The notes under the pieces were generated by a model. It worked only from the letters and a program-made list of their open reading frames with translations, ran no database searches and was not told the origin of the DNA. The translations under genes were made by a program, and so were the position numbers. From an uncultured Mycobacteriaceae bacterium (GTDB lineage Bacteria; Actinomycetota; Actinomycetes; Mycobacteriales; Mycobacteriaceae), in the NCBI GenBank assembly GCA_902826815.1, contig CADEGF010000008.1:1-64000 (forward strand): 64,000 bases of DNA, read 5' to 3'. The stretch's first letter is position 1; each line of letters starts with the position of its first letter. This document shows positions 32,258 to 51,907 of the stretch, one piece after another.

Positions 32258-32287
32258 TTGACCAAATATCTGTTCCGCCGGTAAAGT
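32258..32287 (+). promoter_or_regulatory. second mce promoter with embedded operator
   Basis: TTGACC (32258-32263), 18-bp spacer, TAAAGT (32282-32287). GACCAAATATCTGTTC at 32260-32275 is the shared operator motif, identical in 16 of 16 positions to the copy at 49221-49236 on the other strand. A repressor there would sit between -35 and -10. Confidence 0.7.
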
Positions 32288-32381
32288 CGCCGCCCGGACC
32301 GGGGGTATCCGCATCACGTCAGTGGGGGCACGGTGAAACTCTTCCAACCTGGAGCCGCGTGAGCGCGCGAATGGTGATGGG

Positions 32382-33569
32382 GTGACGGGCCGAGCGCTGC
32401 GCCCGCTGATGGGCGTCGCCACCGTTGTCGCGATCGTCGCGGTGGTCGTCCTCGCCGCGACCCTGTTCCGCGGCGGGTTCACCGACAGCGTTCCCGTGAC
32501 GGTGGTGTCCCCGCGCGCCGGGCTGGTGATGAACCCCGACGCCAAGGTGCAGATCCGCGGGGTCCAGGTGGGCAAGGTCGCGTCGATCGAGCAGCTGCCC
32601 AGCGGCGAGGCCGCGATTCACCTGGCGATGGATCCGAAGCGGATGAACGCGATACCCGCGAACGTGCTCGTCGATATCGCATCGACGACGGTGTTCGGCG
32701 CCAAGTACGTCCAGTTCGTGTTCCCGCCCGACCCGTCGCCGGAATCGCTGCGGGCAGGGCAGGTGCTCGCCGCCAAGCACGTGATGGTCGAAATCAACAC
32801 CGTGTTCGAGAACCTCACGTCGGTGCTGTCCAAGATCGACCCGCCGAAGCTCAACGAAGCCCTCGGCGGCATCGCGCAGGCCGTCAACGGACGCGGCGAG
32901 AAGATCGGCCAGATGCTGACCGACCTTGACGCGTATCTGGCGAAGATCGAACCGAGCCTGCCCGCGCTCAGCCAGGACCTCGAGGTGGCGCCTGAGGTTC
33001 TGCAGGCCTACGGCGATGCCGCGCCCGACTTCGTCACCGTCGCCGACAACGCGGCGCGGATCAGCGACACGATCGTCGACCAGGATCAGAATCTCGACGC
33101 CGCACTCGTCAGCGTCACCGGCCTAGCCGACATCGGCAACGACGTGATCGGCACCAACCGCCAGCCACTCGCCGACGTACTTCACCTTTTGGTGCCCACC
33201 ACCGACCTGCTGAACAAGTACAACCAGGCGCTGTGGTGCGGGCTGTCAGGGATGGTCAACGCCTCGGCCCGGCCACCGCTGAAGGAGCCTGGTGTGGTGG
33301 TGCTCGCGGGCTTCCTGTGGGGGCAGGAGCGCTACCGCTACCCGATGGACCTGCCGAAGGCCGGCGCGACGGGCGGTCCGCAGTGCACCGGTCTGCCGAA
33401 CCTGCCGTTCGAAAGCGTGCCCCCATATGTCGTCGCCGACACCGGCACCAACCCGTGGCGGCGTACCTATCCGGGCATCGTGCTGAATGCCGAAGCGATC
33501 AAGAACATCATGTTCGGTCACGTCGACGGGCCGCCGCGGAACACGTACCAGATCGGGCAGCCCGGATGA
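32382..33569 (+). CDS. MCE-family protein, MceA-type
   Basis: 395 aa, GTG start. An N-terminal membrane anchor (LMGVATVVAIVAVVVLAATLF) is followed by the MCE domain (about 35-115: VTVVSPRAGLVMNPDAKVQIRGVQVGKV) and a long helical region that forms the needle in Mce complexes; the end has GYLP-like conserved PNLPFESVPPYVVADTGTNPW. Mce proteins form a hexameric lipid tunnel from outer to inner membrane. As the first gene of the operon it normally follows yrbEA and yrbEB, but here none precede it. A four-codon ATG-start frame (ATGGTGATGGGGTGA) overlaps its start. Confidence 0.93.
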   Translation: MTGRALRPLMGVATVVAIVAVVVLAATLFRGGFTDSVPVTVVSPRAGLVMNPDAKVQIRGVQVGKVASIEQLPSGEAAIHLAMDPKRMNAIPANVLVDIASTTVFGAKYVQFVFPPDPSPESLRAGQVLAAKHVMVEINTVFENLTSVLSKIDPPKLNEALGGIAQAVNGRGEKIGQMLTDLDAYLAKIEPSLPALSQDLEVAPEVLQAYGDAAPDFVTVADNAARISDTIVDQDQNLDAALVSVTGLADIGNDVIGTNRQPLADVLHLLVPTTDLLNKYNQALWCGLSGMVNASARPPLKEPGVVVLAGFLWGQERYRYPMDLPKAGATGGPQCTGLPNLPFESVPPYVVADTGTNPWRRTYPGIVLNAEAIKNIMFGHVDGPPRNTYQIGQPG

Positions 33570-34591
33570 GGCGCTCGCTGCGGCCAACCCTGGTCAAGTT
33601 CGGGGTCTTCGGCGTCGTCATGGCTGTGATGACCGCGTGCCTGTTCTTCATCTTCGGGCAGTACCAGACGGGTTCGACGAAGAACTACTCCGCGGTTTTC
33701 AAGGATGCCTCGCGCGTCGAGGTCGGGCAGTCGGTGCGTGTCGGCGGGATGCGGGTCGGGACGGTCAACGGCGTCAAGCTCCAGAAGGACAAGACAGCCC
33801 TCATCACGTTTGACGCCGATCCCGCCGTCCAGATGACCGACGGCACCCGGGTGGCTGTGCGCTATCTCAATCTCGTCGGCGACCGGTATCTGGAGCTGAT
33901 CGACGGTCCAGGTGAGCGCAAGTTGCCGCCAGGATCGCAGATCCCCGCGGAGCGGACTGCGGGGGCATTGGATCTCGACCTGCTTCTCGGCGGCCTCAAA
34001 CCCGTTATCCGAGGCCTCAATCCGCAGGACGTGAACGCGTTGTCGGCGTCGCTGATCCAGATCTTCCAGGGCCAGGGCGGCACCCTGCAGTCGCTGCTGT
34101 CCAACACGTCGGGGTTCACCACCGCGCTGGCCGAACACAACCAGACGATCCAGGCGCTGATCGATAACCTGCGTACGCTTTTGGCGACCCTCACCAAGGA
34201 GGGCGACAAGTTCTCCGCCACGATCGCCAAGCTGGAGACGTTGGTGACTGCGCTTGCGGCGGAGAAGGATCCGATCGGCACGGCCATCGAGTCGCTGAAC
34301 AACGGCAGCGCTTCGGTGGCCGACCTGCTCACCGATGCCCGGCCTCCGCTGAAGGGCACCGTCGACCAGTTGAACCGGTTGGTCACCAACATGGACGGCC
34401 AGAAGGACCGTCTCGATTCGGCATTGCAGAAAGCGCCGGAGAACTACCGCAAGCTGATCCGCACCGGGTCCTACGGCAGCTTCTTCAACTACTACATCTG
34501 CGAACTCAAATGGCGGGTGACCGACCTTCAGGGCCGCACCGCCGAGTTCCCATGGATCAAGCAGGAATCGGGGAGGTGCACCGAGCCCTGA
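33566..34591 (+). CDS. MCE-family protein, MceB-type
   Basis: 341 aa. Anchor helix FGVFGVVMAVMTACLFFIFG, MCE domain with SAVFKDASRVEVGQSVRVGGMRVGTVNGV, then coiled helices (AEHNQTIQALIDNLRTLLATL) and a conserved end, SYGSFFNYYICELKWRVTDLQG, which is diagnostic for MceB. ATG overlaps the mceA stop by 4 bp. It contributes one subunit of the heteromeric Mce tube. Confidence 0.93.
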   Translation: MRRSLRPTLVKFGVFGVVMAVMTACLFFIFGQYQTGSTKNYSAVFKDASRVEVGQSVRVGGMRVGTVNGVKLQKDKTALITFDADPAVQMTDGTRVAVRYLNLVGDRYLELIDGPGERKLPPGSQIPAERTAGALDLDLLLGGLKPVIRGLNPQDVNALSASLIQIFQGQGGTLQSLLSNTSGFTTALAEHNQTIQALIDNLRTLLATLTKEGDKFSATIAKLETLVTALAAEKDPIGTAIESLNNGSASVADLLTDARPPLKGTVDQLNRLVTNMDGQKDRLDSALQKAPENYRKLIRTGSYGSFFNYYICELKWRVTDLQGRTAEFPWIKQESGRCTEP

Positions 34592-35694
34592 TGCTGAGAT
34601 ACCGTGGAAGCAAGCTTGTTCGGACGGGGTTCATGGGTGTCGTCCTGTCGATCCTCATCGTGCTGATCGGACTGTCTCCTGAGACGTTGACGTCCATGGC
34701 GACGGCGCTGCGCTATCAGGCGCAGTTCTCCGATGCGGGTGGCCTGACACCGGGCAACGACGTGACGATCGCCGGAATCAAGGTCGGCAGCGTTTCGGAT
34801 GTCTCCCTGCAGGGACGCAACGCGCTGGTGACGTTCGCCATCGACGGCACGGTCGAACTCGGTTCGAATACGACGGCACACGTGCGGACCGGGACGCTTC
34901 TCGGTGAACGAGTCCTCACGCTGGAGTCCGCAGGCGACGGCACCATGCACCCGATGGACGTCATCCCGGTGTCGCGGACCGCGTCGCCGTATTCGCTCAC
35001 CGAAGCGGTCAGCGAGCTCACCACCAACACCGCGGGCACCGACACCGCGTCCCTGAACCAATCGCTCGATACGCTGTCGGAGACGCTGGATCAGGTTGCG
35101 CCACAACTGGGTCCGGCGTTCGACGGGATCACCAAGCTGTCGCACGCCATCAACGACCGTGACGATTCGCTGAGCACGCTGCTCAAGGACGGCGCCGACG
35201 TCACCAAGATCCTGTCCGACCGCAGCGCACAGGTGAACGCCCTGATCCTCAATGGCAATGACCTCGTCGGCGTGCTCAACGAACGCCGCCGGGCGATCGT
35301 CGAATTGCTGGTCCACACGTCGGCGTTGGCGAAGCAGCTGAAGGGTCTGATCAACGACAACGAGGAGAAGCTGGCGCCGACGCTGGACAAGCTCAATGCG
35401 GTGACGGCGATCCTGGAGAAGAACCGCGACAACATCGCCAAGGCGCTGCCAGGCCTGGCGAAGTTCCAGACGACGCTCGGCGAGACGATCGGCAACGGTC
35501 CGTACTACCAGGCCTACATCCCCAACATCTTCTTCGGCGAGCTACTGCAGCCCTTCTTTGACTACGCGTTCGGTTTCCGGCGGGGAACCAACGCGGGCCA
35601 GCCACCCGACAACGCCGGCCCGCGTGCCGAAATTCCGTTCCCGTACAACGGGATTCCGCAGGAGAACGAGAAGTGGGGGCCGCCGCCGCCATGA
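34591..35694 (+). CDS. MCE-family protein, MceC-type
   Basis: 367 aa. Anchor helix TGFMGVVLSILIVLIGLSPE, MCE domain YQAQFSDAGGLTPGNDVTIAGIKVGSV, long helical middle part, and conserved YYQAYIPNIFFGELLQPFFDYAFGF. The C-terminus is a short proline-rich tail (NEKWGPPPP). It starts within the mceB stop (TGATG). Residues 20-100 would form the membrane-proximal ring. Confidence 0.93.
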   Translation: MLRYRGSKLVRTGFMGVVLSILIVLIGLSPETLTSMATALRYQAQFSDAGGLTPGNDVTIAGIKVGSVSDVSLQGRNALVTFAIDGTVELGSNTTAHVRTGTLLGERVLTLESAGDGTMHPMDVIPVSRTASPYSLTEAVSELTTNTAGTDTASLNQSLDTLSETLDQVAPQLGPAFDGITKLSHAINDRDDSLSTLLKDGADVTKILSDRSAQVNALILNGNDLVGVLNERRRAIVELLVHTSALAKQLKGLINDNEEKLAPTLDKLNAVTAILEKNRDNIAKALPGLAKFQTTLGETIGNGPYYQAYIPNIFFGELLQPFFDYAFGFRRGTNAGQPPDNAGPRAEIPFPYNGIPQENEKWGPPPP

Positions 35695-37085
35695 CTCGAA
35701 ACCGGCTCGTGAAACTCTCCCTTGCGGCGCTGCTCGCCGTGGCGCTCGTCGGCGGTGTCGCCGTCGTCGTCCAGCAGGCGTTCTTCAAGCCCAACACGAT
35801 CACCGCGTACTTCACCAAGACGGTCGCCATCTATCCCGGTGACGAGGTCCGCATCGCCGGAGTAAAAGTGGGCTCCATCGACTCGATCGAGCCGATGGGC
35901 ACGCAGGCGAAGATGACACTGCGCGTCAAGCGCAACATCTCGGTTCCCGCAGACGCCAAGGCCGTCATCGTCGCGCAGAACCTGATCTCGGCCCGCTATG
36001 TCCAGCTCGCGCCCGCCTACGAATCCGGCCCGACGATGCGCGACGGCGCCGTGATTCCACTCGACCGCACGGCGATCCCCGTCGAGTGGGATGAAGTGAA
36101 AGAACAGTTGATGCGGCTGGCGACCGAACTTGGCCCGGACAAAGGGGTTTCGACGGGCTCCGTCGGGCGGTTCATCGACAGCGCCGCCAACGCCCTTGAC
36201 GGCAACGGGGACAAGCTGCGCCAGACGCTGGCACAGCTGTCCGGCGTCGGACGGATTCTGGCCGACGGCAGCGGGAACATCGTCGACACCATCACCAACC
36301 TGCAGACCTTCGTCACCGCGCTTCGTGACAGCAACGACCAGATAGTGCAGTTCCAGGACAGGTTCGCGACGTTGACCAGCGTGGTCGACAACAGCAGGAC
36401 GGACCTCGATGCCGCGCTGACGAACCTGTCCGAGGTCGTCGGCGATACCCAACGTTTCATCGAGGGCACGCGAGACAAGACCGCCGAACAGATTCGGTTG
36501 CTCGCGGGCGTCACCCAGAACCTGGCCGATCACCGCCTTGACCTCGAGAATGTCCTCCACATCGCGCCGCACTCGATTGCCAACGCCGTCAACATGTTCG
36601 ACCCGCGCACGGGTGCCGCCAGCGGTGTCTTCGTGCTGAACAACCTGTCGAACCCGGTGTGGGCGATCTGCACCATGATCGGCGCGCTTGAGAATGTGAC
36701 ATCCCCTGAGACGGGCAAGCTCTGCGCCCAGTACGCAGGCCCTGCGCTGAACTCGATCGACATCAACAGCATCCCCGTTCCGTTCAACCCGTTCCTGTCG
36801 GGTAACCCGCCGGACTACATGCTCAGGTATTCCGAGGACAGGCTCCGGCCGGAGAACGAAGGGCAGCCGCCTCCGCCCCCCACCGACCCGCCCTCGGTTT
36901 CCGCGTACACGGGTGCGGGCGATATACCGCCGCCGCCGGGCTATGGGCCGCCGCCAGGGCCGCCTGCGCCGCCTGGGCCGCCTGCGCCGTCGCTGCAGGA
37001 CATGCTCCTGCCTGCGGAGGCGCCTCCGCCGCCGGGTGACGTGCCGCCGGATGCGCCGCCTGCGACTGACGGGACGCCGCCATGA
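35691..37085 (+). CDS. MCE-family protein, MceD-type
   Basis: 464 aa from ATG 35691 (MTRNRLVKLS). Anchor helix SLAALLAVALVGGVAVVVQQ, MCE domain ITAYFTKTVAIYPGDEVRIAGVKVGSIDSI, helical needle part, then CAQYAGPALNSIDINSIPVPFNP. The C-terminal 80 residues are proline-rich (PPPPTDPPS, PPGPPAPPGPP), which in Mce proteins probably spans or contacts the cell wall. It overlaps mceC by 4 bp. Confidence 0.93.
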   Translation: MTRNRLVKLSLAALLAVALVGGVAVVVQQAFFKPNTITAYFTKTVAIYPGDEVRIAGVKVGSIDSIEPMGTQAKMTLRVKRNISVPADAKAVIVAQNLISARYVQLAPAYESGPTMRDGAVIPLDRTAIPVEWDEVKEQLMRLATELGPDKGVSTGSVGRFIDSAANALDGNGDKLRQTLAQLSGVGRILADGSGNIVDTITNLQTFVTALRDSNDQIVQFQDRFATLTSVVDNSRTDLDAALTNLSEVVGDTQRFIEGTRDKTAEQIRLLAGVTQNLADHRLDLENVLHIAPHSIANAVNMFDPRTGAASGVFVLNNLSNPVWAICTMIGALENVTSPETGKLCAQYAGPALNSIDINSIPVPFNPFLSGNPPDYMLRYSEDRLRPENEGQPPPPPTDPPSVSAYTGAGDIPPPPGYGPPPGPPAPPGPPAPSLQDMLLPAEAPPPPGDVPPDAPPATDGTPP

Positions 37086-38329
37086 TTGCCGCAGCGAGGC
37101 GGAGTGAGCATCGCAGCGACGCAGGAGCGAGGAGCGGAGCGACAACGCAGCGCGGCAACGTCGAACGGAGGAGCGGGCGTCGGCTGCTCGCGATCGGCTG
37201 CAGCGTCATGGTGACGGTCACCGGGTGCGCGTTCCAAGGTGTGAACTCGCTACCGCTACCCGGCGCGGTCGGACGTGGTGGCGGTGCGGCCGTCTACCAT
37301 GTCGAGCTCGCGAATGTCGGCACGCTCGAATCGAATTCGCCGGTGCTGATCGACGATGTCGTCGTCGGCAGCGTCGGCAGGATGCGATTGCACGGCTGGC
37401 ACATCGACCTGGATCTATCGCTCAAGCCCGACGCCATCGTGCCCGCCAACGCCGTGGCGACGGTCGGGCAGACGAGCCTGCTCGGGTCGATGCACGTGGC
37501 GCTCGACCCGCCACCGGGTGACGCGCCGAACGGGCGCCTGAAGCCCGGCTCAACGATCGGCCTGAACAGTTCGTCGACCTACCCGTCGACCGAGCAGACG
37601 TTGTCGTCGCTGGCGGCCGTGGTCAACGGCGGCGGCCTCGGACAGGTCGGCGACATCGTGCACAACTTCAACATCGCGTTGAGCGGTCGCGGGGATGTCG
37701 TCCGCGATCTGATCGCCCGACTCGACACTTTCGTCGGAACGCTCTATCAACAGCGCGACAACATCATCGCGACCGTCACCGAACTGAACCGGTTCGCGTC
37801 CACGCTCGGCGGGCAGCAGGAAGTGCTGACGCGTGCGCTGAACAAGATCCCGCCCGCGCTGGACGTGCTGATCAAGGAGCGGCCGAGGCTCACCACCGCA
37901 CTGGAGAAGCTGGGCACGCTGAGCGAGACCGTTTCGGGGCTCGTCAACGACACGCAGGCCGACCTTGTCACGAACCTGCAGAATCTCGAGCCCACGCTCA
38001 AGGCGCTGGCCGATGTCGGCCCGGAGATCGACACCGCCCTCGCCTACGTCCCGACGTTCCCGTTGACCCAGAACCTGATCGACCGCGGCGTTCGTGGCGA
38101 CTACGTGAACCTGTGGGTCACAGTCGATCTCACCAACGCCCGTCTCAAGCGGGGGCTGCTGCTCGGCACGCGTCTCGGCCAGGACCGGGCGTCGATGATC
38201 CCTGCGCCCGGCGATGCCGGCTACGACGCCTACTACACCAAGTTCCCGCTCGGCGTCGGCACGTCACCACCGTTCGGACCGATCCCGAACGCGGACGCCG
38301 CGCCATGGGAGCCCGGGGGTGGTGGCTGA
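37082..38329 (+). CDS. MCE-family lipoprotein, MceE-type
   Basis: 415 aa. The lipobox MVTVTGCAF places the lipid-bearing cysteine at residue 49. MCE domain: VYHVELANVGTLESNSPVLIDDVVVGSVGRM. In front of the signal peptide is an unusual 33-residue Arg/Ser/Ala-rich extension encoded by the repetitive DNA 37090-37180 (GAGGCGGAGTGAGC-like units). No nearer start codon would leave a working signal peptide, so the extension appears to be translated. The fifth gene of the operon is the lipoprotein, as in other mce loci. Confidence 0.9.
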   Translation: MIAAARRSEHRSDAGARSGATTQRGNVERRSGRRLLAIGCSVMVTVTGCAFQGVNSLPLPGAVGRGGGAAVYHVELANVGTLESNSPVLIDDVVVGSVGRMRLHGWHIDLDLSLKPDAIVPANAVATVGQTSLLGSMHVALDPPPGDAPNGRLKPGSTIGLNSSSTYPSTEQTLSSLAAVVNGGGLGQVGDIVHNFNIALSGRGDVVRDLIARLDTFVGTLYQQRDNIIATVTELNRFASTLGGQQEVLTRALNKIPPALDVLIKERPRLTTALEKLGTLSETVSGLVNDTQADLVTNLQNLEPTLKALADVGPEIDTALAYVPTFPLTQNLIDRGVRGDYVNLWVTVDLTNARLKRGLLLGTRLGQDRASMIPAPGDAGYDAYYTKFPLGVGTSPPFGPIPNADAAPWEPGGGG

Positions 38330-39951
38330 TGCTCACGCGCTTCGTCCGGATCCAGCTCGCGATCTTCACGATCGCGTCGGTTGTCGGCGTCTTGGTGATG
38401 GTGTTCGCCTACATGCAGGCACCGACGTTGCTCGGGATCGGTCGAATCACCGTCACGCTCGAATTGCCCGCGTCGGGCGGGCTTTACCGATTCTCCAACG
38501 TGACGTACCGCGGCGTCGAGGTCGGCAAGGTGACGAGGATGGACGTGTCGCGGACGCAGGCCACCGCGACGCTGTCGCTTGGCACGTCGCCGAAGATTCC
38601 GGCCGACCTGGAAGCCGAGGTGCGCAGCGTGTCGGCGGTCGGCGAACAGTACGTGGAACTGATGCCGCGCACGGATTCTCCGCCGTATCTTCAGGACGGG
38701 TCGGTGATCGCCATGTCCGACACCAAGATTCCGCAGCCCGTCGGGCCGATGCTGGACCAGGTCAGCACGCTGATCAACAGCGTGCCCAAGGAGAAGTTGA
38801 GCGGGCTGGTCAACGAGTCGTTCAACGCGTTCAACGGCGCCGGTTTCGACCTCGGCTCGCTCTTCGACTCGTCGGCGAAGATCTCCGGCGATCTGAACAC
38901 GGTGTCGGATCAGACCACGACGCTGATCCAGGACAGTGGGCCGCTTCTCGATTCGCAAGCGCAGACGACCGATTCACTGCGGACCTGGGCGAGAAGCCTT
39001 GCCGGGATCACCGGTCAGGTGGTGGCGAACGACCCACAGGTGCGCACCCTGTTGCAGGAGGGGCCGCCCGCGGCGAGTGAGGTGACGCGACTGCTCGATC
39101 AGGTGAAGCCGACCCTGCCCGTTCTGTTGGCGAACCTCACCACCTTCGGGCAGGTGGCGGTGACCTACCACCCGTCACTCGAGCAGGTGCTGGTGTTGCT
39201 GCCGCCGTTCGTCGGTGATGTTCTGTCCTCGGCTCCCGAGAACAACCCGACCGGTATCCCGTTGGGAGACTTCAGGGTGCAGCTGGGCGACGGGCCGCCG
39301 TGCACCGTCGGGTTCCTGCCACCGTCGCAGTGGCGTTCGCCTGCCGACCTGACCACGGTCGACACGCCGGACGGGCTGTATTGCAAGCTGCCGCAGGATG
39401 CTCCGATCGTTGTGCGCGGAGCGCGCAACTCGCCGTGCATGGGTGTCCCTGGCAAGCGTGCGCCGACGGTGCAGGAGTGTTACAGCGACAAGCCCTACAC
39501 TCCGCTGGCGGTGCGGCAGCACGCGCTGGGACCGTATCCGATCGACCCGAATCTGATCGCACAAGGCATTCCCCCCGACAGCCGTGTCGACGAAGGCCAA
39601 AGGCTCTACGCGCCAGTGGAAGGCACCCCGATGCCGCCAGGGGCGGTGGTCCCGTCGAGCCCACCGCCGGACGCAGCCCCACCCGGTGCCCCACCACCAC
39701 CGCCAGAGGCGCCTGCACCACCCGCGCCGCCCGCCCAGGTATTCCCGCCGATGGATACCGGAGGAGCGGTGGCCGCGACGCCGAGTTCGTTCGGCGCGAA
39801 TGCTTCGACGCCTGGGCCGTCGGTCGCTGTCGCCCACTACGATCCGCAGACCGGGCAGTACGCCGCGCCGGACGGCGAGGTCTTCCGTCAGCAGGACCTC
39901 GTCGACCCGGCCAAGTCGTGGCAGGACCTGATCTACAAGGCGGACGTATGA
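38329..39951 (+). CDS. MCE-family protein, MceF-type
   Basis: 540 aa. Anchor helix VRIQLAIFTIASVVGVLVMVFAY, MCE domain TLLGIGRITVTLELPASGGLYRFSNVTYRGVEVGKV, long helix region, and a cysteine-containing segment (PCTVGFLPPSQWRSP, NSPCMGVPGKRAPTVQECYSD). The last 130 residues are proline-rich (PPPDAAPPGAPPPPPEAP) and end YDPQTGQYAAPDGEVFRQQDL, a conserved MceF tail. It starts within the mceE stop (TGATG). It completes a standard A-F set. Confidence 0.93.
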   Translation: MLTRFVRIQLAIFTIASVVGVLVMVFAYMQAPTLLGIGRITVTLELPASGGLYRFSNVTYRGVEVGKVTRMDVSRTQATATLSLGTSPKIPADLEAEVRSVSAVGEQYVELMPRTDSPPYLQDGSVIAMSDTKIPQPVGPMLDQVSTLINSVPKEKLSGLVNESFNAFNGAGFDLGSLFDSSAKISGDLNTVSDQTTTLIQDSGPLLDSQAQTTDSLRTWARSLAGITGQVVANDPQVRTLLQEGPPAASEVTRLLDQVKPTLPVLLANLTTFGQVAVTYHPSLEQVLVLLPPFVGDVLSSAPENNPTGIPLGDFRVQLGDGPPCTVGFLPPSQWRSPADLTTVDTPDGLYCKLPQDAPIVVRGARNSPCMGVPGKRAPTVQECYSDKPYTPLAVRQHALGPYPIDPNLIAQGIPPDSRVDEGQRLYAPVEGTPMPPGAVVPSSPPPDAAPPGAPPPPPEAPAPPAPPAQVFPPMDTGGAVAATPSSFGANASTPGPSVAVAHYDPQTGQYAAPDGEVFRQQDLVDPAKSWQDLIYKADV

Positions 39952-41266: not shown

Positions 41267-41299
41267 ACGACGCTCACGGTGGGTTGGCGCGCCGAATTC
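41251..41299. repeat. hairpin repeat related to 6381-6433
   Basis: Arms 41251-41268 and 41282-41299 pair with three mismatches around a 13-nt loop (GACGCTCACGGTG). Core GGCGCGCTAAAC and the loop ACGCTCAC are shared with the element at 6381-6433. It covers the ends of the hydrolase remnant and of the convergent oxidoreductase gene, and probably acts as their terminator. Confidence 0.65.
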
Positions 41300-43453: not shown

Positions 43454-44530
43454 ATGAACGCAGGCTCGAGTCGCGTTGTCGTCTGGTCGACGGGCGGTGT
43501 CGGCTCCATCGCCGTCGACGCCGTACACCGCCGCCCCGATCTCGACCTCGTAGGCGTCTGGGTGCATTCGCCGGACAAGGTCGGCCGCGACGCAGGCGAA
43601 CTCGCAGGCGGTGAAACGATCGGCCTTGCGGCGACCAACGATGCCGACGCGCTGATCGCCCTGCGGCCGGATGCCGTCGTCTACGCGGCATGCGGGCCAG
43701 AACGCGACGCCGGCGCCGTTCCCGAGTATCTGCGCCTGCTCGAAGCCGGAATCAACGTGGTGTCAACGACATCGACCAGCCTGGTGTACCCGCCGGCCTT
43801 CTACTCACCGGAATGGCGTGAACTACTGGAGTCGGCGGCGAAGACGGGTAACGCGTCGTTCTACGCGTCGGGCATCTTTCCCGGATTCGGCTCGGATCAG
43901 CTGGCGCTACTGCTGGCGACACAGTCGAAGAAGATCAGGTGCATCAAGGCCACCGAGGTCGCGCTCAACGACCACTACCCGGTCGCCGACATCATGATGA
44001 ACGGTATGGGGTTCGGCCACCCGCTCGACTTCGAACCGATGCTGAAGACTCCCGGCTTCATCGAAATGGCCTGGAAGGCACCGATTCACCTGATGGCCGA
44101 CGGCCTCGGCGTCGAGGTCGAGGAGGTGCGCGGCTCGCTCGACCGACGGCTGACCGACCGCGACATCGAAGTCGCATTCGGAACCATCAAGGCCGGAACG
44201 TGCGGGGCGGTCCTCACCAGAGCCGCGGGGGTGGTCAACGGCCGGGAGGCGATCGTGATCGAGCACATCATCCGGATGGCGCGCGACGTCGCACCCGACT
44301 GGCTGGCGTCGGAGTTCGACGCCACCTACCGCGTCGACATCGAGGGGGAACCCGACATCCACTGCGCGATGAACCTTGGCGCGGCGGAAGGACACGGTGC
44401 GGGCCGGGCCGCGATGGCCGCCACCGCCATGCGCGTCGTCAACGCCATCCCCTATGTGATCGACGCGCCTGCGGGGCTGCTCAGCTCGCTCGACATGCCG
44501 AACACGTTGCCTCGGCACGCATTCGATTGA
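43454..44530 (+). CDS. DAP-dehydrogenase-like oxidoreductase (copy 2)
   Basis: 358 aa. Nearly the same start as copy 1 (VVVWSTGGVGSIAVDAVHRRPDL, GVWVHSPDKVGRDAGELAGG) and the same C-terminal layout (YASGIFPGFGSDQLALLLA, GFGHPLDFEP). ATG 43454 has GAAGGAGAACC in front, 13 bp after the LLM stop. The two copies share cofactor-binding residues but differ around the presumed active site (GIEPGFAADY versus GIFPGFGSDQ), so they probably act on different intermediates. Confidence 0.82.
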   Translation: MNAGSSRVVVWSTGGVGSIAVDAVHRRPDLDLVGVWVHSPDKVGRDAGELAGGETIGLAATNDADALIALRPDAVVYAACGPERDAGAVPEYLRLLEAGINVVSTTSTSLVYPPAFYSPEWRELLESAAKTGNASFYASGIFPGFGSDQLALLLATQSKKIRCIKATEVALNDHYPVADIMMNGMGFGHPLDFEPMLKTPGFIEMAWKAPIHLMADGLGVEVEEVRGSLDRRLTDRDIEVAFGTIKAGTCGAVLTRAAGVVNGREAIVIEHIIRMARDVAPDWLASEFDATYRVDIEGEPDIHCAMNLGAAEGHGAGRAAMAATAMRVVNAIPYVIDAPAGLLSSLDMPNTLPRHAFD

Positions 44531-44614: not shown

Positions 44615-45586
44615 ATGTACATGCTCCGCTTCGATATGCGCGCGCCGGAAATCGGTGCGCCAACGGTGGAGTTGTACTCCGCCGCAACGGATATGTGCGA
44701 ATGGGCCGAGAACCACGGCGCCCTCGCCGCGGTCCTGTGCGAACACCACGGCGCGCAGGACGGCTACCTGCCGTCGCCGCTCATCCTTGCCTCCGCGATC
44801 GCGGCCCGCACCCGAGGCCTTCCGCTGAGCCTGATCCTTCTGCTGCCGTTCTACGACCCGGTCCGGCTCGCCGAGGACATGGCGGTACTCGACATCATCA
44901 GCAAAGGCCGGGCCTCCTACATCCTCGCGCTGGGCTACCGGCCGGAGGAGTTCGAACACTTCGGCGTCGACATCAGGACCCGCGGGCGCATCGCCGACGA
45001 GAAGCTGGCGCTGTTGCGCGAACTCCTCTCGGGCGAGGCGATATTCGAGGGTCGCCGCATCAACCCCACACCTGCACCGCACACCTCGGGTGGACCGATG
45101 CTGATGTGGGGCGGAGGTTCGGTTGCGGCGGCGCGGCGGGCGGGCCGGTACGGGCTTGGCATGCTCGGCAACGCGAACGTCGACGGTATGCACGAGGCCT
45201 ACCAGGAGGCGTGCCGCCAGCACGGACACGAGCCAGGGCCGATATTCCTGCCGGACCGCGAGACGCCTTCGGTCTGCTTCGTCGCCGACGACGTCGACAA
45301 GGCGTGGGACGAGATCGGGCGATACCTGCTCCACGATGTCCGCGCGTACGCCGACTGGAATCCCGGCAACAACTACTCCGCGGGCTTCTCCGATGTGACG
45401 ACCGTCGAGGAACTGCGGGCCAATCCGACGTCGCACCGGATCTACAGCGTTGAAGAAGCCAAGGCGCGGGTGCGGGCGGGCGAGGTGCTCAACCTGTCGC
45501 CGCTGTGCGGCGGAGTGCCGCCTGAGCTCGCATGGCCCTATCTGAAGCGGGTCGGAGAGGTGGTCATGTCCGAGGTGACGCAGTGA
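44615..45586 (+). CDS. LLM-class flavin-dependent oxidoreductase (copy 2)
   Basis: 323 aa, the same length as copy 1, with matching segments MLRFDMRAPEIGAPTVELYSA, VLCEHHGAQDGYLPSPLILASAIAART, DPVRLAEDMAVLDIISKGRAS and LSPLCGGVPPELAWPYL. It begins after an 84-bp gap with a GGGAGG ribosome site. Its stop overlaps the P450 start (GTGA), so it is coupled to the P450. Likely a monooxygenase or dehydrogenase acting in series with that P450. Confidence 0.87.
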   Translation: MYMLRFDMRAPEIGAPTVELYSAATDMCEWAENHGALAAVLCEHHGAQDGYLPSPLILASAIAARTRGLPLSLILLLPFYDPVRLAEDMAVLDIISKGRASYILALGYRPEEFEHFGVDIRTRGRIADEKLALLRELLSGEAIFEGRRINPTPAPHTSGGPMLMWGGGSVAAARRAGRYGLGMLGNANVDGMHEAYQEACRQHGHEPGPIFLPDRETPSVCFVADDVDKAWDEIGRYLLHDVRAYADWNPGNNYSAGFSDVTTVEELRANPTSHRIYSVEEAKARVRAGEVLNLSPLCGGVPPELAWPYLKRVGEVVMSEVTQ

Positions 45587-46779
45587 CCGGCGCCAGCGCG
45601 GTCGACGTCTATTACGACCCCTACGATTTCGCGATCGACGACGACCCCTACCCGACGTGGAAGCGGCTACGCGACGAGGCGCCGCTGTATTTCAACGAGA
45701 AGTACAACTTCTACGCGTTGAGCCGGTATGAGGATGTGGCGCGCGAACTGCACAACTGGGAGACCTACCGATCCGGGCGCGGCACGACGATGGACATCAT
45801 CCTTGCCGACATCGAGCTGCCACCTGGCATCATCCTTTTCGAGGATCCGCCGATTCATGACCTTCATCGACGCTTGCTGTCAAGGGTTTTCACGCCGCGG
45901 CGGATGGAGGCGATTGAGCCGTTGACGCGCCAATACTGCGAGCGTGCCCTCGATCCTCTTGTCGATTCGGACCGATTCGACTTCATCGCCGACATCGGCG
46001 CGCAGATCCCGATGCGCACGATCGGGTACCTGCTCGGTATCCCCGAACAGAACCAGGAGTCGATCCGCGACACCTCCAACAATGCGCTTACGCTCACCGA
46101 GGGCGAGTTCGGCGGTGCGCGCGCGGACCTGTTCGAGAACAGTAACGAGTTGTTCGCCGAATACATCGACTGGCGGGCCGACCATCCATCCGACGACCTG
46201 ATGACCCAGCTGCTCAATGCGGAGCTGGAGGAAGACGGCGAAATGCGTCGGCTCACCCGCACCGAGGTGCTGATGTACACCGGCATGGTCGCGGGCGCGG
46301 GCAACGAGACGACGACCAGGCTGATCGGCTTCGCCGGGCAACTCCTCGCCGAGAATCCCGATCAGCGAGGCGAATTGGCGAATGATCACTCGTTGATCCC
46401 GCGCGCGATCGAGGAGCTGCTGCGCTACGAGGCACCGTCACCCGTACAGGCTCGCTGCGTGGCCCACGACGTCGAGTGCCGTGGCCAGCTGATTCCAGCG
46501 GGTTCGGTGATGCTGCTGCTGAACGGGTCGGCGAACCGCGACGAGCGCCACTATCCCGACCCCGACCGCTTCGACATCCACCGCGGCGCAGCGCATCTGT
46601 CGTTCGGGCAGGGGCTGCACTTCTGCCTCGGCTCGGCGCTGGCCCGCATGCAGGCCCGGGTCGTGCTGGAGGAAGTGCTGAAGCGCTGGCCGGACTGGGA
46701 AGTGGACTACGACAACGCCGAGAAGGCGCACACCTCGAGTGTTCGCGGTTGGTCGAAGCTGCCCGTCATGCTCGGCTAG
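45583..46779 (+). CDS. cytochrome P450 (copy 2 of the paralog pair)
   Basis: 398 aa. Motifs: I-helix AGAGNETTTR, ExxR in IEELLRYEAP, heme loop FGQGLHFCLGSALARMQ with Cys348. Long stretches match the P450 at 30665 (APLYFNEKYNFYALSRY, HDLHRRLLSRVFTPRRM, HTSSVRGW). The last 14 bp overlap the 3' end of the convergent Mce3R-like gene. It ends the LLM-oxidoreductase-LLM-P450 unit. Confidence 0.92.
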   Translation: MTGASAVDVYYDPYDFAIDDDPYPTWKRLRDEAPLYFNEKYNFYALSRYEDVARELHNWETYRSGRGTTMDIILADIELPPGIILFEDPPIHDLHRRLLSRVFTPRRMEAIEPLTRQYCERALDPLVDSDRFDFIADIGAQIPMRTIGYLLGIPEQNQESIRDTSNNALTLTEGEFGGARADLFENSNELFAEYIDWRADHPSDDLMTQLLNAELEEDGEMRRLTRTEVLMYTGMVAGAGNETTTRLIGFAGQLLAENPDQRGELANDHSLIPRAIEELLRYEAPSPVQARCVAHDVECRGQLIPAGSVMLLLNGSANRDERHYPDPDRFDIHRGAAHLSFGQGLHFCLGSALARMQARVVLEEVLKRWPDWEVDYDNAEKAHTSSVRGWSKLPVMLG

Positions 46780-48052
46780 CGGTGACGCCGCGCAGCATCG
46801 TGTCGCGCTGATGGATGAGCGAGGCGCGTGTGCCCAGTTCGTGAAGGATGTTCTCGGGGATCCAGCCGACCCCGATGACCGAGCGGGCAAGCGTCTCGTT
46901 CGCCGGGCTGTCGATCGTCACCTCACCGGAGCGAATGCCCTCGGCCAGAAGGGTTTTCATCTGCCGAACGCGTTTGGCGAAAAGCCAGCCGATGTTCGGT
47001 GCATCCGGGGGAGTCTGGCGCATCCACGCCAGCTGGATCCGGAACTCATCGCCGAAACGGTCGAGGACGTTGGTGTTGACCCAGCTCAACGCATCGAGCT
47101 TCTCGATCACCGTCGAGTTCGAGCGCAACACGCGGGTCCACCCCTCGGCGACCTTCTCGCCGAACGACTGCATGATCGACGCCAGCAGTTGATCCTTCGA
47201 GCCGATCAGGCGGTACACCGTGCCGGTGCCGAGCTGCGCGGCCGATGCGATATCCCTGATGGTCGTGACCTCGTAGCCCTTGCGGCCGAACTCCGCACGT
47301 GCGACGGCACGGACATGGGCCGCCTTGTCGCCCGGTTCGGCGTCGGCATCGTCGCTCCACGACTTCACCACGTCGTCGGCGGCGATGAATGCCGCCGACC
47401 GGTCGAGCTGTGCATCGGTCGGTGAACCGGTGGCCAATCCCTCCAACAGGATTCGGCACAGCAGGTCGGCCAGCTTGTCGGCGCTGGCGTTATAGCGGAT
47501 GACCTCGAGACCGACCCGCAGCATGTCCTGGACGATGCGGTCGGCAAGGACTGGCAGGTCGACATCGGATCGCAGATAGCCGCTCCAGCGGGCCGCGCGA
47601 AGCGTCTGCACCATCGCTTCCATGATCGCCGTCGGCCGCTGCAGGGCCAGCGCGGTGAGATCCTTGTTGGGGCCGTGCCCCTCGTAGAACGTCATCTGCA
47701 ACGCCGCGCCGTGCGTCACCGCGCACTGTGCGATGGCCGCGCTGAGATCGACGATCTGGTCGAACGCAGGCCGCGCCGACGGGTCGTCGAGTTTTACCTG
47801 GGCGGTCTCGGCGATGCGGTCCAGATCGGTGTGATATCGATTGAGCAGCTCGACGAGGATCGCTTCCTTGGATTCGAAGTGGTGATAGAGGCTGCCGGGA
47901 AGGATCCCCGCGGCATCCGCGATCTCCTGAAGCGAGGTGCGTAGACCGGAGCTGGCGATCAGTGCCGCCGCGGTTTGCAGAATCTCGGTCCGCCTGGTGC
48001 CGTCGTCGTAGGCGTGTCCGGCGTTCTTTGGCGTCACCGGTGGACGCCCCAC
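46766..48052 (-). CDS. Mce3R-like double TetR regulator
   Basis: 428 aa from GTG 48052 (GGAGG four bases upstream). Two complete TetR modules lie in tandem: HTH 1 at about 38-59 (RTSLQEIADAAGILPGSLYHHF) and HTH 2 at about 263-283 (TTIRDIASAAQLGTGTVYRL), each followed by a helical ligand domain. This double design is that of M. tuberculosis Mce3R, which represses the mce3 operon and lipid-metabolism genes. The open frame runs far upstream antisense to the SDR gene, which I reject. A motif copy in its own promoter (48097-48112) suggests autoregulation and control of the five other motif-bearing promoters. Confidence 0.85.
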   Translation of the reverse strand: MGRPPVTPKNAGHAYDDGTRRTEILQTAAALIASSGLRTSLQEIADAAGILPGSLYHHFESKEAILVELLNRYHTDLDRIAETAQVKLDDPSARPAFDQIVDLSAAIAQCAVTHGAALQMTFYEGHGPNKDLTALALQRPTAIMEAMVQTLRAARWSGYLRSDVDLPVLADRIVQDMLRVGLEVIRYNASADKLADLLCRILLEGLATGSPTDAQLDRSAAFIAADDVVKSWSDDADAEPGDKAAHVRAVARAEFGRKGYEVTTIRDIASAAQLGTGTVYRLIGSKDQLLASIMQSFGEKVAEGWTRVLRSNSTVIEKLDALSWVNTNVLDRFGDEFRIQLAWMRQTPPDAPNIGWLFAKRVRQMKTLLAEGIRSGEVTIDSPANETLARSVIGVGWIPENILHELGTRASLIHQRDTMLRGVTASRA

Positions 48053-48096: not shown

Positions 48097-48112
48097 GACC
48101 CAATGTTTGGTT
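48097..48112. promoter_or_regulatory. shared operator motif at the Mce3R-like gene
   Basis: On the minus strand AACCAAACATTGGGTC, 14 of 16 positions fitting the motif RACCWAAYATYTGTTC; here it is nearly palindromic (ACCAAACATTGGGT). It lies 45 bp before the GTG. Confidence 0.6.
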
Positions 48113-48237: not shown

Positions 48238-49170
48238 TCAGCCCGGGGAGCCGCCCAGTCGTTCCGTGACCTCGAAGACCTCTTCGTAGTTCGTCTCCGG
48301 GATCGTGAACTTCTCCGTCGCGGAGATCTCGGCGATGCTGGCGGCGACGTCGTCGACCGTCGGTTCGGAGCCGCGCTCGGCCAACCAGCCCTTCGTCAGC
48401 CCGATGAAGACCCGGGCGTAGCGCCCGCCGATGGCCGAGTAGTTGCGATGGCTGAATTCGCAGGCCCTGCTGGCCAGGTACACCACCATCGGCGTCACCA
48501 GCTCCGGCCTGATCATGTCGAGGAAGCCCGACTCTTCGAGCGCTCTGATGTCGCCGACGGTTTCGGTCACCATCCGTGAGAAGCCGGTCGGCAGAACGGT
48601 GTTCGCGAGGATCCCGTGTGGCGCGCCTTCGAGCGCGATGATGTTGGTCAGCCCGACCAGACCGGCCTTCGCCGCGGCGTAGTGGGCCTCGAGGTGCTGG
48701 CCGAACATCCCCGCCGTTGACGAGATGAAGACGAACCGGCCGTAGCCCTGCTTCTTCATCACCCGGAACGCCGGCTGCGCGAGGTAGAAGCCGCCGTCGA
48801 GGTGCACAGCCAGCATGCGCCGCCAATCGTCGGGCGTCATCTCGTCGAACGCGATGCTGTTGAAGATGCCCGCATTGCTGACCACCGCGTCGAGCCGTCC
48901 GAAGCTCTCGACGGCGGTCGCCACGATCGCCTCGCCGCCCTCGGGGCTGTCGACGGAATCGTGCGACGAGACAGCCGTCCCGCCCGCCGCGGTGATCTCC
49001 GCAACTACCTGGTCAGCCACCGATGCGTCGGCGCCGTCACCGTGCATGGTTCCGCCGAGGTCGTTGACGACGACCGAGGCGCCGCGTCGCGCCAACTCCA
49101 TTGCGTAGAGCCGGCCGAGTCCCCTGCCCGCGCCGGTGACGACCGCGACCTGACCGTCGAAATCGATCAT
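48238..49170 (-). CDS. short-chain dehydrogenase/reductase
   Basis: 310 aa. Motifs: VAVVTGAGRGLGRLYAMELA (cofactor), VSNAGIF, catalytic FISSTAGMFGQHLEAHYAAAKAG (S, Y-x-x-x-K). After the fold comes a 40-residue C-terminal extension (SEPTVDDVAASIAEISATEKF). The closest known style is the hydroxyacyl-CoA/17-beta-hydroxysteroid dehydrogenase-4-type SDRs (GASVVVNDLGG). ATG 49170 has GGAGGAAG in front. It is transcribed from the operator-bearing promoter at 49209-49238, divergent from the VWA gene. Confidence 0.88.
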   Translation of the reverse strand: MIDFDGQVAVVTGAGRGLGRLYAMELARRGASVVVNDLGGTMHGDGADASVADQVVAEITAAGGTAVSSHDSVDSPEGGEAIVATAVESFGRLDAVVSNAGIFNSIAFDEMTPDDWRRMLAVHLDGGFYLAQPAFRVMKKQGYGRFVFISSTAGMFGQHLEAHYAAAKAGLVGLTNIIALEGAPHGILANTVLPTGFSRMVTETVGDIRALEESGFLDMIRPELVTPMVVYLASRACEFSHRNYSAIGGRYARVFIGLTKGWLAERGSEPTVDDVAASIAEISATEKFTIPETNYEEVFEVTERLGGSPG

Positions 49171-49208: not shown

Positions 49209-49238
49209 ACACTACGGTCGGAACAGATATTTGGTCAA
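49209..49238 (-). promoter_or_regulatory. SDR promoter with embedded operator
   Basis: On the minus strand TTGACC (49238-49233), 18-bp spacer, TAGTGT (49214-49209). The motif GACCAAATATCTGTTC occupies 49236-49221, the same geometry as the mce promoter. The predicted start is about 30 bp before ATG 49170. The VWA gene starts 29 bp on the other side. Confidence 0.7.
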
Positions 49239-49264
49239 TTATGGGCTCGCGGTCGGAGGTGCTC

Positions 49265-50950
49265 GTGGCGAAGCTCCCAGACGACGAGCGCCTGCAGGCG
49301 TTGGGCATGCTGGCTTCTGCGCTGGCCGGCCGGGCCGTCGCCGTCGCGCCGCTCCAGCAGGGCGAGCCGTCGTGGACAGACGGCCAGACGGTCCACGTCG
49401 ATCCGGCGGATGGCCCGCGCGCCAATCTCGAGTCGGTGGCCGTGCACGCATCGCTGATCGCCGCCGGCAGCCTCGACTCGGAGGTGATGGGCTCGCTGGT
49501 TCGACGCCCGCGGATCGCCAACCGCTATCTGTCCATCGAAGGACGGCGCGCACTCGCCGCCAACGCCGGCCTGCTGCCCCGCGCACTGGCGCACCTGCTG
49601 GATCCCGGATCGGCGTCACGCACCGATGCGCCCCAAACCTCGCTGTCGTTGGCCTCTGGCAAGGGTGCGATCGACGACGCGCCCACGTGCTTCGGCGTGA
49701 TCCGGGCGAAGAAGGTGCTGGCGGTCGGCGCTCGCGCGGCCGCGCAGTCGAAAGGCGAAGCTGCGGGCCACGTTCCGCGTCGCGAATCTGCCGAGGCGCT
49801 GGAGGAACTCGACGACGACATCGACGATGTCGACGATCCGGATCTTTTCACCAGCCCCGTCGGCGGCGGTGGCTTCATCGGCAAGTGGCTCAAGAAGATG
49901 TTGTCGTCGGCGCGCCAATCGGGCAGCGGGGACGGTCCCCCCGGTGCTGATTCGCCGACGCACCGCACGAATTCGGCCAACCGAGGCGGATATTCGGTGG
50001 TCTCCACGGCCACCGTCGCATCCGAAGAAGTCCCCGACATCAAGACCGACGGCGTCAAGTACCCGGAGTGGGACGTCGAGCACCGCAGGTATCGCCCCGA
50101 CTGGTGCACCGTGCGCGAGGTCGATCCGAAGATCAAGGCATCGGCGGCGCAGGCCATCGACGGCGCTATCGGCGTGCGACGCCCGTTGGCACGGCTCGGG
50201 ATGGGTCTGCACCGGCGACATCGGCAGCCGCAAGGCGACGACATCGACATCGACGCCGCCGTCGAGGCGCGCGTGGAGGTGATGGCCGGGTCGGCGCCTG
50301 ACGAAGCCGTGTATCTCGACAGTCTGCGGCGCCGACGCGACCTGTCGGTGCTGCTGCTGCTCGATGTCTCCGGCTCGACGGCAGAACCGGGGACGGTCGG
50401 CCGCACCGTCCATCAACAGCAGCGCGCCGCCGTCGCCGACCTGACCGTGGCCCTGCACGATCTCGGCGACCGCGTTGCGCTCTACGCCTACTACTCACAG
50501 GGCCGCGCGGCGGTCACCGTGATGCCGGTCAAGCAGTTCGACGACCATCTGGATGCTCGGGTCATGCGGCGGTTGAACAGCCTTGAGCCAGGGGCGTATT
50601 CGCGTCTCGGCGCGGCGATCCGGCATGGGTCGACGGTCCTTGAAAGCCGCGGCGGAACCTCGCGTCGGCTGCTCGTCGTCCTTTCCGACGGGCTTGCCTA
50701 CGACCACGGGTACGAGCGTGCCTACGGTGCGGCGGACGCTCGCCGCGCTCTGACAGAGGCGCGGCGTCGGGGGACTGGATGCGTGTGCCTGACGGTCGGG
50801 GCGGGTACCGACGCCGGGGTGCTGCGGAAGGTGTTCGGCAGTGCCGCGCACGCGACGATCGGCAGGCCGGAGCAGCTCGGCGCGGTGATCGGCCCGATGT
50901 TCCGTTCGGCGTTGCGGTCCGCGGAAGTGCGCCGTCGGGTTTCATCATGA
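49265..50950 (+). CDS. VWA-domain protein, NorD/CbbO-like
   Basis: 561 aa from GTG 49265, chosen for GGAGG five bases upstream; an ATG at 49241 lacks a ribosome site. The N-terminal half is poorly conserved, with an acidic run (EELDDDIDDVDDPD). The C-terminal 200 residues are a von Willebrand A domain with the MIDAS motif D367-x-S-x-S (LLLDVSGSTAEPG) and LLVVLSDGLAYDHGYERAYG. NorD/CbbO proteins pair with MoxR ATPases to activate metal enzymes. The ATPase is the next gene. Confidence 0.85.
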   Translation: MAKLPDDERLQALGMLASALAGRAVAVAPLQQGEPSWTDGQTVHVDPADGPRANLESVAVHASLIAAGSLDSEVMGSLVRRPRIANRYLSIEGRRALAANAGLLPRALAHLLDPGSASRTDAPQTSLSLASGKGAIDDAPTCFGVIRAKKVLAVGARAAAQSKGEAAGHVPRRESAEALEELDDDIDDVDDPDLFTSPVGGGGFIGKWLKKMLSSARQSGSGDGPPGADSPTHRTNSANRGGYSVVSTATVASEEVPDIKTDGVKYPEWDVEHRRYRPDWCTVREVDPKIKASAAQAIDGAIGVRRPLARLGMGLHRRHRQPQGDDIDIDAAVEARVEVMAGSAPDEAVYLDSLRRRRDLSVLLLLDVSGSTAEPGTVGRTVHQQQRAAVADLTVALHDLGDRVALYAYYSQGRAAVTVMPVKQFDDHLDARVMRRLNSLEPGAYSRLGAAIRHGSTVLESRGGTSRRLLVVLSDGLAYDHGYERAYGAADARRALTEARRRGTGCVCLTVGAGTDAGVLRKVFGSAAHATIGRPEQLGAVIGPMFRSALRSAEVRRRVSS

Positions 50951-50957: not shown

Positions 50958-50987
50958 TTGAAACAAACATCTGTTCCGCGTTAGGCT
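50958..50987 (+). promoter_or_regulatory. ATPase promoter with embedded operator
   Basis: TTGAAA (50958-50963), 18-bp spacer, TAGGCT (50982-50987). The motif variant AAACAAACATCTGTTC lies at 50961-50976, again between -35 and -10. It starts 8 bp after the VWA stop, so the ATPase has its own controlled promoter. Confidence 0.65.
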
Positions 50988-51024
50988 GCGTGGGCGCAAT
51001 GAGGCGACAGACGGAAGGGGCGAG

Positions 51025-51864
51025 ATGGGCAACGAGCCCGGGCTCGTACACCAGAACGGCGCGATGTCGACGGTTGGCAGGTCGCGTCCCTACTACCAGG
51101 CGACAGGCAACGAGGAGGCCGTCTTCAAGGCGGCTTACCGGCAGGGTCTTTCGCTGGTCCTCAAAGGGCCGACGGGATGCGGCAAGACCCGCTTCGTCGA
51201 AGCAATGGCCCACGACCTCGGCAGGCCGCTGATCACCGTCGCCTGCCATGACGACCTGACGACCGCCGACCTGGTCGGGCGCTATCTGCTGCGTGGGGAC
51301 GAGACGGTGTGGGTCGACGGTCCGCTGACCCACGCCGTGCGCGAGGGAGCGATCTGCTACCTCGACGAGGTCGTCGAAGCGCGCCAGGACACCACCGTCG
51401 TACTGCATCCCCTCGCGGATTACCGTCGCCAGCTGCCCATTGAGCGCCTCGGCATCACGCTGGACGCGGCGCCGGGATTCGGCCTCGTGGTGTCGTACAA
51501 CCCCGGTTACCAGAGCGTCCTGAAGGACCTCAAAGACTCGACAAGGCAGCGGATGGTGGCCATCGAGTTCGGATTCCCCCCACCGGATGTGGAGGAGGGG
51601 ATCGTCGAGCGCGAAGCGGGCGTCGAGAAGGCCACCGCCGTCGAGCTGGTCCGGTTCGGGCAGGCGATCCGGCGTCTCGAGACCGGAGGCCTGCGCGAGG
51701 TCGCGTCGACGCGGGTCCTCATCGCAGCGGGCCGCCTCATCGCGGAAGGGCTGACCGTCCCCGAAGCGGCACGAGCCGCGATCGCAGGGCCGCTGACTGA
51801 CGATCCGTCGGTCGGCCGGGGGCTCAACGAGTTGATCGACGTGTATCTCGCCGCAGGCGATTGA
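51025..51864 (+). CDS. MoxR-type AAA+ ATPase, NorQ/CbbQ-like
   Basis: 279 aa. Walker A GPTGCGKT (K54), Walker B ICYLDEV (D114, E115), sensor region VVSYNPGYQSVLKDLKDSTRQR with Asn and the arginine-rich end; the last 80 residues resemble the CbbQ/NirQ C-terminal domain. These ring ATPases work with a VWA partner to remodel a metal enzyme (Rubisco, NO reductase). No such client is encoded nearby; the P450s, LLM enzymes or a protein elsewhere are candidates. GGAAGGGG precedes the ATG. Confidence 0.9.
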   Translation: MGNEPGLVHQNGAMSTVGRSRPYYQATGNEEAVFKAAYRQGLSLVLKGPTGCGKTRFVEAMAHDLGRPLITVACHDDLTTADLVGRYLLRGDETVWVDGPLTHAVREGAICYLDEVVEARQDTTVVLHPLADYRRQLPIERLGITLDAAPGFGLVVSYNPGYQSVLKDLKDSTRQRMVAIEFGFPPPDVEEGIVEREAGVEKATAVELVRFGQAIRRLETGGLREVASTRVLIAAGRLIAEGLTVPEAARAAIAGPLTDDPSVGRGLNELIDVYLAAGD

Positions 51865-51907
51865 CGCTGCTCGGCACCGCCGTTACTGTCTGAACAAATA
51901 TTAGGTT
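51861..51907 (+). promoter_or_regulatory. promoter plus operator of the binding-protein operon
   Basis: TTGACG (51861-51866), 17-bp spacer, TACTGT (51884-51889), then GAACAAATATTAGGTT (51892-51907), the shared motif in inverse orientation over the predicted start. The -35 begins at the ATPase stop. Confidence 0.62.

Follow-up and report, generated by a model that had tools for sequence, protein, structure and literature searches.

The stretch analysed here (hereafter the window) comprises positions 1 to 64,000 of contig CADEGF010000008.1 in assembly GCA_902826815.1 from an uncultured Mycobacteriaceae bacterium, and is part of contig C8 of a 6.87-Mb genome in 141 contigs. It carries a 20-kb block of genes with an mce operon, oxidoreductase and monooxygenase genes and the gene of a double TetR protein, together with six copies of a 16-bp near-palindromic motif with the consensus RACCWAAYATYTGTTC. 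As judged from the sequence, the six sites are very probably the operators of one local, self-controlled regulon, with the double TetR at 46766-48052 as its regulator. The sites and the candidate regulator are as follows.

32260..32275, + strand: operator 1, GACCAAATATCTGTTC, upstream of mceA; exact match to the consensus; overlaps the -35 box TTGACC (32258-32263), with the -10 box TAAAGT at 32282-32287
42422..42437, + strand: operator 2, GACCTAACATCTGTTC, in the divergent promoter region of the DapB1-like oxidoreductase and the luciferase-like monooxygenase LLM1; exact match
46766..48052, - strand: double TetR of 428 aa with two TetR_N domains (Pfam PF00440, two stretches); candidate binder of the six sites
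48097..48112, - strand: operator 3, AACCAAACATTGGGTC, 44 bp upstream of the double TetR; 2 mismatches, the most diverged copy; candidate autoregulatory site
49221..49236, - strand: operator 4, GACCAAATATCTGTTC, between a short-chain dehydrogenase (SDR) gene (-) and a VWA-domain protein gene (+); exact match; minus-strand -35 box TTGACC at 49233-49238 and -10 box TAGTGT at 49209-49214
50961..50976, + strand: operator 5, AAACAAACATCTGTTC, upstream of an AAA ATPase gene; 1 mismatch; -35 box TTGAAA at 50958-50963 and -10 box TAGGCT at 50982-50987
51892..51907, - strand: operator 6, AACCTAATATTTGTTC, upstream of the gene of a binding protein; exact match; the opposite strand has TAGGTT, a possible -10 box of the binding-protein gene

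All six copies claimed in the first-pass annotation were found at the coordinates and on the strands given there, and the double TetR was borne out, by its two PF00440 stretches, as encoded amid the motif set. The consensus assigned to all six was exact at four (32260+, 42422+, 49221- and 51892-), and the remaining two deviated from it, 50961+ by 1 mismatch and 48097- by 2. By chance, 0.00 exact matches were expected (100 dinucleotide shuffles of the window, none with an exact match). When up to 3 mismatches were allowed, the window contained 9 matches in 7 positions (two of the 9 being the same site read in reverse), with 0.86 expected and 2 in the largest shuffle, and the sole additional place was 56314-56329(-). 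Three promoters of the form TTGAMM-18-TANNNT had been described with the motif lying between the boxes; the boxes were as described (TTGACC-18-TAAAGT at 32260, TTGACC-18-TAGTGT at 49221 and TTGAAA-18-TAGGCT at 50961), but the operator was found to overlap the -35 box and not to lie cleanly between the two. The intergenic placement of all copies held for the six if the start of DapB1 is set at 42395; the longest DapB1 open reading frame (ATG at 42431) would reach into the 42422 site, and the protein from start 42395 spans the family domains.

The conservation of the sites was estimated from the loci of the regulator's orthologues. The scan of species genomes gave 420 regulator relatives, and the best 80 of these 420 loci (L044-L123; Mycolicibacterium, Mycobacterium or Mycobacteriaceae, plus four Nocardia) were kept. 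At up to 2 mismatches, the motif was counted 318 times in the 80 loci (1.60 Mb), with 122 exact copies, 93 having one mismatch and 103 having two, and the reversed pattern 0 times. A mapped start lay near 255 of the 318 sites, 1 site fell inside a mapped gene and the remaining 63 were left without assignment, since only relatives of the window genes were mapped. At least one site was present in 78/80 loci. Among the loci covering the respective upstream stretch, a site was found upstream of the ATPase in 57/63, of the VWA gene in 52/54, of the binding protein in 53/63, of the SDR in 44/54, of LLM1 in 17/17 and of DapB1 in 9/9, and few or no sites were found at other mapped genes (P450_56, 2/37; SDR54, 3/62; aldehyde dehydrogenase, 2/34; DapB2, 3/22; AveC53, 0/56). 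In MAFFT alignments of the upstream regions, agreement in the motif columns was 0.998 for VWA/SDR (53 sequences), 0.962 for the ATPase (58), 0.961 for the binding protein (54), 0.931 for LLM1 (18) and 0.872 for the double TetR (48), and outside the motif columns 0.44-0.59 (0.44 in the double-TetR alignment, 0.59 in the VWA/SDR one). The window's own site at 48097-48112 is the variant AACCAAAYATTGGGTC, which was found too in loci L048, L066, L081 and L102 and in which the right half is similar to the left; the mode of binding to it may differ.

The mceA site, which most of the 80 loci did not reach, was examined separately in 12 named genomes. All of the 9 mceA orthologues (73-90% identity) were preceded by a site at 117-133 bp, two of these sites having 1 mismatch and seven having 3. 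At the 21 paralogous mceA genes (one, L263, cut at the contig end) there was no site at 117-133 bp, and within 600 bp at up to 3 mismatches only 2/21 had one (L257, with an exact copy at 285 bp, and L261, with 3 mismatches and a distance of 505 bp).

Specificity within the genome itself was estimated in two ways. With the consensus at up to 2 mismatches, 13 sites were found genome-wide, 6 of them in the block, and the reversed-pattern control gave 4, so that single 2-mismatch sites mean little at this noisy level. A sequence-only profile was made by aligning 70 22-mers, drawn at random from the 130 distinct ones that surround start-proximal sites of the orthologue loci. In the search of the whole genome with it, up to E=10, seven places were returned and the window's six ranked first to sixth (18.6 to 12.8 bits), with the seventh, C1:102975, just under the sixth at 12.7 bits; this search scored 150 of 241 first-look candidates. 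The profile sites came from other species and included no window site, yet they had been picked by the consensus of the first-pass annotation, and the ranking is thus a measure of specificity and not an independent discovery. As the top six profile places were all in the block, the motif was not equally common elsewhere in the genome, which the annotation had named as the result that would count against its claim. The operators, as the top six genome profile matches, cluster near the regulator gene, at the promoters of its neighbours and, as a weak site, at that of the regulator. Outside the block, a site at C1:102973 lies upstream of an SDR and had the look of a further regulon member; the 2-mismatch sites L007, L010, L011 and L013 lie within longer open frames and were treated as chance, and L012, an ambiguous case, was treated likewise.

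The co-occurrence of motif and double TetR was determined in two draws of genomes, which overlap in genomes and for which the p values ignore kinship. In the family draw (301 genomes), regulator matches were found in 46, 29 of them close (at least 44% identity) and 17 distant (28-33%). The exact motif was present in 25/29 genomes with a close double TetR vs 0/272 others (Fisher p=1.1e-32), including 0/17 with only a distant one, and the four misses had 1- or 2-mismatch sites within 16-19 kb around the gene. In the genus draw (118 genomes), double TetR orthologues were found in 69, and the exact motif in 68/69 of these vs 1/49 without (p=7.5e-31). A single genome (G304) has the motif but not the protein; its assembly, 84% complete, is split into 720 contigs, and its four sites are on two short contigs with block genes, so that the regulator may be missing from the assembly only. 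Of the 141 exact sites of the genus draw, 127 were no more than 20 kb from a close double TetR, in about 0.5% of the sequence (mean genome of 5.6 Mb assumed); 13 others were on contigs without a double TetR, and one was 439 kb distant. The link between the motif and the double TetR is thus strongly supported by footprinting and co-occurrence.

The architecture of the operator was derived from the 255 sites near mapped starts. Palindromic pairing was present at positions 2/15 in 249 sites, 4/13 in 255 and 7/10 in 253, and at 3/14 in just 54, so that the halves ACCWAA and AACARA share a skeleton yet differ consistently, and the site has a direction. Relative to the gene, this direction was the same at 57/57 ATPase and 44/44 SDR sites and opposite at 54/54 VWA and 53/55 binding-protein sites; it was less constant at LLM1 (17 opposite, 3 same). 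Boxes of the form TTG-17/18-TANNNT were joined with the operator at 56/57 ATPase and 44/44 SDR sites, and an other-strand TANNNT was found inside the operator at LLM1 (17/17 opposite-direction sites) and the binding protein (37/53); in the window the latter is true for the binding protein and not for LLM1, where the site is reversed. The overlap with promoter boxes at several genes would also be expected if the motif were a conserved promoter (sigma factor) element and not an operator. This is very improbable, because the conserved part is mostly in the spacer, is found in both directions, does not keep a single register to the boxes, and in its exact form is nearly limited to genomes with the double TetR; a pure promoter element was rejected on the genome confinement and the box registers.

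The window protein was compared with the characterised relatives of its family. By the regulator, the nearest named relative is Mycolicibacterium stellerae (88% identity; the host's own records were possibly excluded), and plasmid records contained no relative of the double TetR at E<=1e-20. The Protein Data Bank (PDB) search with the window-family profile gave 2ibd at 86 bits, KstR2 at 74 bits and Mce3R (9b7y) at 60 bits. The N-terminal half of the window protein is related to KstR2 (the 74-bit match), the recognition segment GSLYHHF is found in both and is invariant in 31 relatives of the window protein, and the operator half AnCAA is in the same register as in the KstR2 operator AnCAAGnnCTTGnT given in the available text of PMC3068626. 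KstR2 differs in being a single-TetR chain (PDB 4w97, 200 residues) on a true palindrome, whereas the window protein has two TetR units and its motif is without the G and the symmetry of AnCAAGnnCTTGnT.

The architecture of the window protein is that of Mce3R (Rv1963c) of Mycobacterium tuberculosis, one chain with two TetR units. The two proteins are about 25% identical, and were aligned by profile collinearly over 282 columns (98.6% probability, 23% identity). In the available text of PMC11667970, Mce3R is encoded within its own regulon, which has an mce operon and lipid/redox enzymes, and 204 putative double-TFR (two TetR-family regulator units) proteins predicted in Actinomycetes are cited; with two TetR_N domains, 428 aa and collinearity with Mce3R, the window protein fits this class. 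Further marks of the class are a W-shaped, asymmetric fold that sets both heads of a protomer on one operator, and an asymmetric operator that two unlike helix-turn-helices read. The double TetR architecture, the mce operon and the collinear alignment are what would favour the window regulator as an Mce3R orthologue, with the block as the Mce3 regulon of this species. Mce3R orthologues, searched for with the Mce3R piece of PDB 9b7y as the query, were found in 22/118 genus-draw genomes (73-91% identity over the query piece), 18 of which (18/118) also carry the window-type double TetR, and none was found in the genome of the window at E<=1e-20. The exact motif was present in 0/4 genomes with Mce3R alone, vs 51/51 with the window-type double TetR alone. 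At up to 2 mismatches, no site was present in twelve Mce3R loci of 3.4 kb, each extending only 1.5 kb to either side of the match to the query; three of the twelve have a 3-mismatch site. An alignment of the regions upstream of Mce3R, made for its operator, contained apparent coding sequence and gave nothing useful. The published Mce3R operator is, in the text available, 25 bp long and non-palindromic, in two copies 53 bp apart (PMC11667970), whereas each of the six window promoters has one near-palindrome of 16 bp. Mce3R orthology is hence extremely improbable and was ruled out, by the motif split (absent from 4/4, present in 51/51), by both proteins being present in 18 genomes and by Mce3R being absent here; of the label 'Mce3R-like' in the first-pass annotation, the two-TetR architecture is supported and the identity with Mce3R is not.

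Several observations weigh against the assignment of the six sites to the double TetR. Two of the 80 loci (L052 and L064) carry the protein and some block genes, yet have no site at up to 2 mismatches. Near the regulator's own start a site was found in just 47/80 loci and without a fixed direction (29 opposite, 21 same), the window site at 48097 is itself weak, and the window LLM1 site runs counter to the direction found in most relatives. Among the other 16-column stretches of the alignments, the best ones reached 0.63-0.92 (highest for the binding protein), and the footprint sites had been chosen by the consensus of the first-pass annotation, which inflates their conservation. Most genomes without the double TetR also lack a close block ATPase, and the co-occurrence is in part shared inheritance because the regulator and the block are linked.

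This linkage also confounds the co-occurrence with respect to a regulator that is encoded elsewhere and binds the motif, the double TetR merely sharing the conserved gene block. One unlinked promoter was examined in this respect. In the genome of the window, a 2-mismatch site at C15:83538 (L009:1501-1516) lies upstream of an amidohydrolase gene (PF04909) that is divergent from a CMD-family gene, and in G326 the same promoter has an exact site (L150:4349-4364), 439 kb from the double TetR of that genome. Among 90 regions (the hand-picked best or second match per genome, of about 126 matches), this site was present in 3/66 from genomes with the double TetR vs 0/24 others (p=0.39), which favours neither regulator; the amidohydrolase promoter was rejected as a conserved regulon member, its site being sporadic. 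Against a regulator encoded elsewhere, double TetRs have the motif next to them even where the gene content of the block differs, among them proteins of 45-46% identity from another genus (L127 and L128); there, exact sites adjoin the regulator, and the fetched 14-15 kb contain none of the window core genes. The L127 site adjoins two amidohydrolase-family genes and would lie inside one of these on its longest reading. The one close relative of the block ATPase noticed in a genome lacking the double TetR (L124, genome G243; ATPase 77%, VWA 47%) is, over 9 kb and at up to 2 mismatches, without a site; this is a single case. The operator is also in the KstR2 register, in line with the KstR2-related N-terminal half of the window protein. 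A regulator encoded elsewhere is considered unlikely, and the double TetR is retained as the regulator of the six sites.

In the proposed mechanism, one polypeptide with two unlike TetR units would read the directional near-palindrome, and two unlike heads on one chain would explain the consistent difference between the operator halves and their fixed direction at several promoters. Of the two helix-turn-helices, the KstR2-like one at the N-terminus probably recognises ACCWAA, and the C-terminal one the opposite half, AACARA. The bound regulator would keep RNA polymerase off by covering the -35 box at mceA, the SDR and the ATPase, or the other-strand -10 box at the binding-protein promoter. 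Release would be by a lipid-like compound, either a substrate of the Mce/P450/LLM/SDR pathway or one of its intermediates. Since the site at 48097 is the most diverged, the autoregulation that it would give is probably weaker. With the operator overlapping -35 or -10 boxes, steric repression is probably the simplest mechanism. The sign of regulation was deduced from the site position and from relatives, and the double TetR might bind the sites and activate, or work both ways. There is a small chance of this, given that such overlap is customary for repressors and that the characterised relatives KstR2 and Mce3R act as repressors in the available text of PMC3068626 and PMC11667970.

On balance, the features of the protein and its sites suggest that a second double-TetR repressor lineage apart from Mce3R is probably present here. 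Its members would have one chain with two unlike helix-turn-helices (one KstR2-like), their operator would incorporate the -35 or -10 hexamer of the promoter, and they would control an uncharacterised block for the uptake and oxidation of lipids, whose mce operon has no YrbE permease genes of its own. In the literature covered (subscription journals being outside its scope), Mce3R was the sole double-TetR protein found with a described structure and operator, and nothing was found on the window protein, the block or the motif, nor an operator or regulon of the subfamily. A double-TetR subfamily other than Mce3R has a precise predicted operator, a defined promoter set and testable predictions, and the constant operator direction at most promoters offers a clean way to ask how one chain with two unlike heads reads DNA.

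The genes of the block are as follows.

32382..39951, + strand: mceA-mceF, with MlaD and Mce4_CUP1 domains
41298..42395, - strand: DapB1, diaminopentanoate-dehydrogenase-like oxidoreductase (PF19328, PF01113)
42469..43440, + strand: LLM1, luciferase-like monooxygenase (PF00296)
43457..44530, + strand: DapB2, second DapB-like oxidoreductase (PF19328); start uncertain
44615..45586, + strand: LLM2, second luciferase-like monooxygenase (PF00296)
45583..46779, + strand: cytochrome P450 (PF00067)
48238..49170, - strand: SDR (PF00106)
49241..50950, + strand: VWA-domain protein, CoxE-like (PF13519, PF05762)
51025..51864, + strand: AAA ATPase of the CbbQ/NirQ/NorQ type (PF07728, PF08406); start possibly 51064
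51922..53037, + strand: binding protein with a periplasmic-binding-protein fold (PF13458); no leader peptide apparent by eye
53036..54178, + strand: AveC-like membrane protein, downstream in the binding-protein unit (PF17198); start uncertain

The content of the block (Mce proteins, P450s, luciferase-like monooxygenases, DapB-like oxidoreductases, SDRs, an aldehyde dehydrogenase, AveC-like proteins and the VWA/AAA pair) points to the uptake and oxidation of a lipophilic compound as its likely role, and the operator marks which genes of this uncharacterised block are likely co-induced. No YrbE/MlaE permease (PF02405) was found on this contig, and the six MlaE matches of the genome are pairs on C17, C26 and C55; the mceA-F products may work with a permease encoded elsewhere or with a different membrane protein. 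Pairs of a CoxE-like VWA protein and a CbbQ/NorQ-type AAA ATPase are usually activases, and by analogy one enzyme of this oxidoreductase block may need metal or cofactor loading. The binding protein at 51922-53037, which has its own operator, is possibly a cytosolic ligand carrier or sensor.

Two AveC-like proteins (PF17198; 29883-30668 and 53036-54178) flank the block, each near P450 or oxidoreductase genes. The DapB-like and LLM genes at 41298-45586 form two DapB-LLM pairs, the first of them divergent, and represent a duplicated module. Relatives of the ATPase are present elsewhere in the genome on C10 (66%) and C15 (49%).

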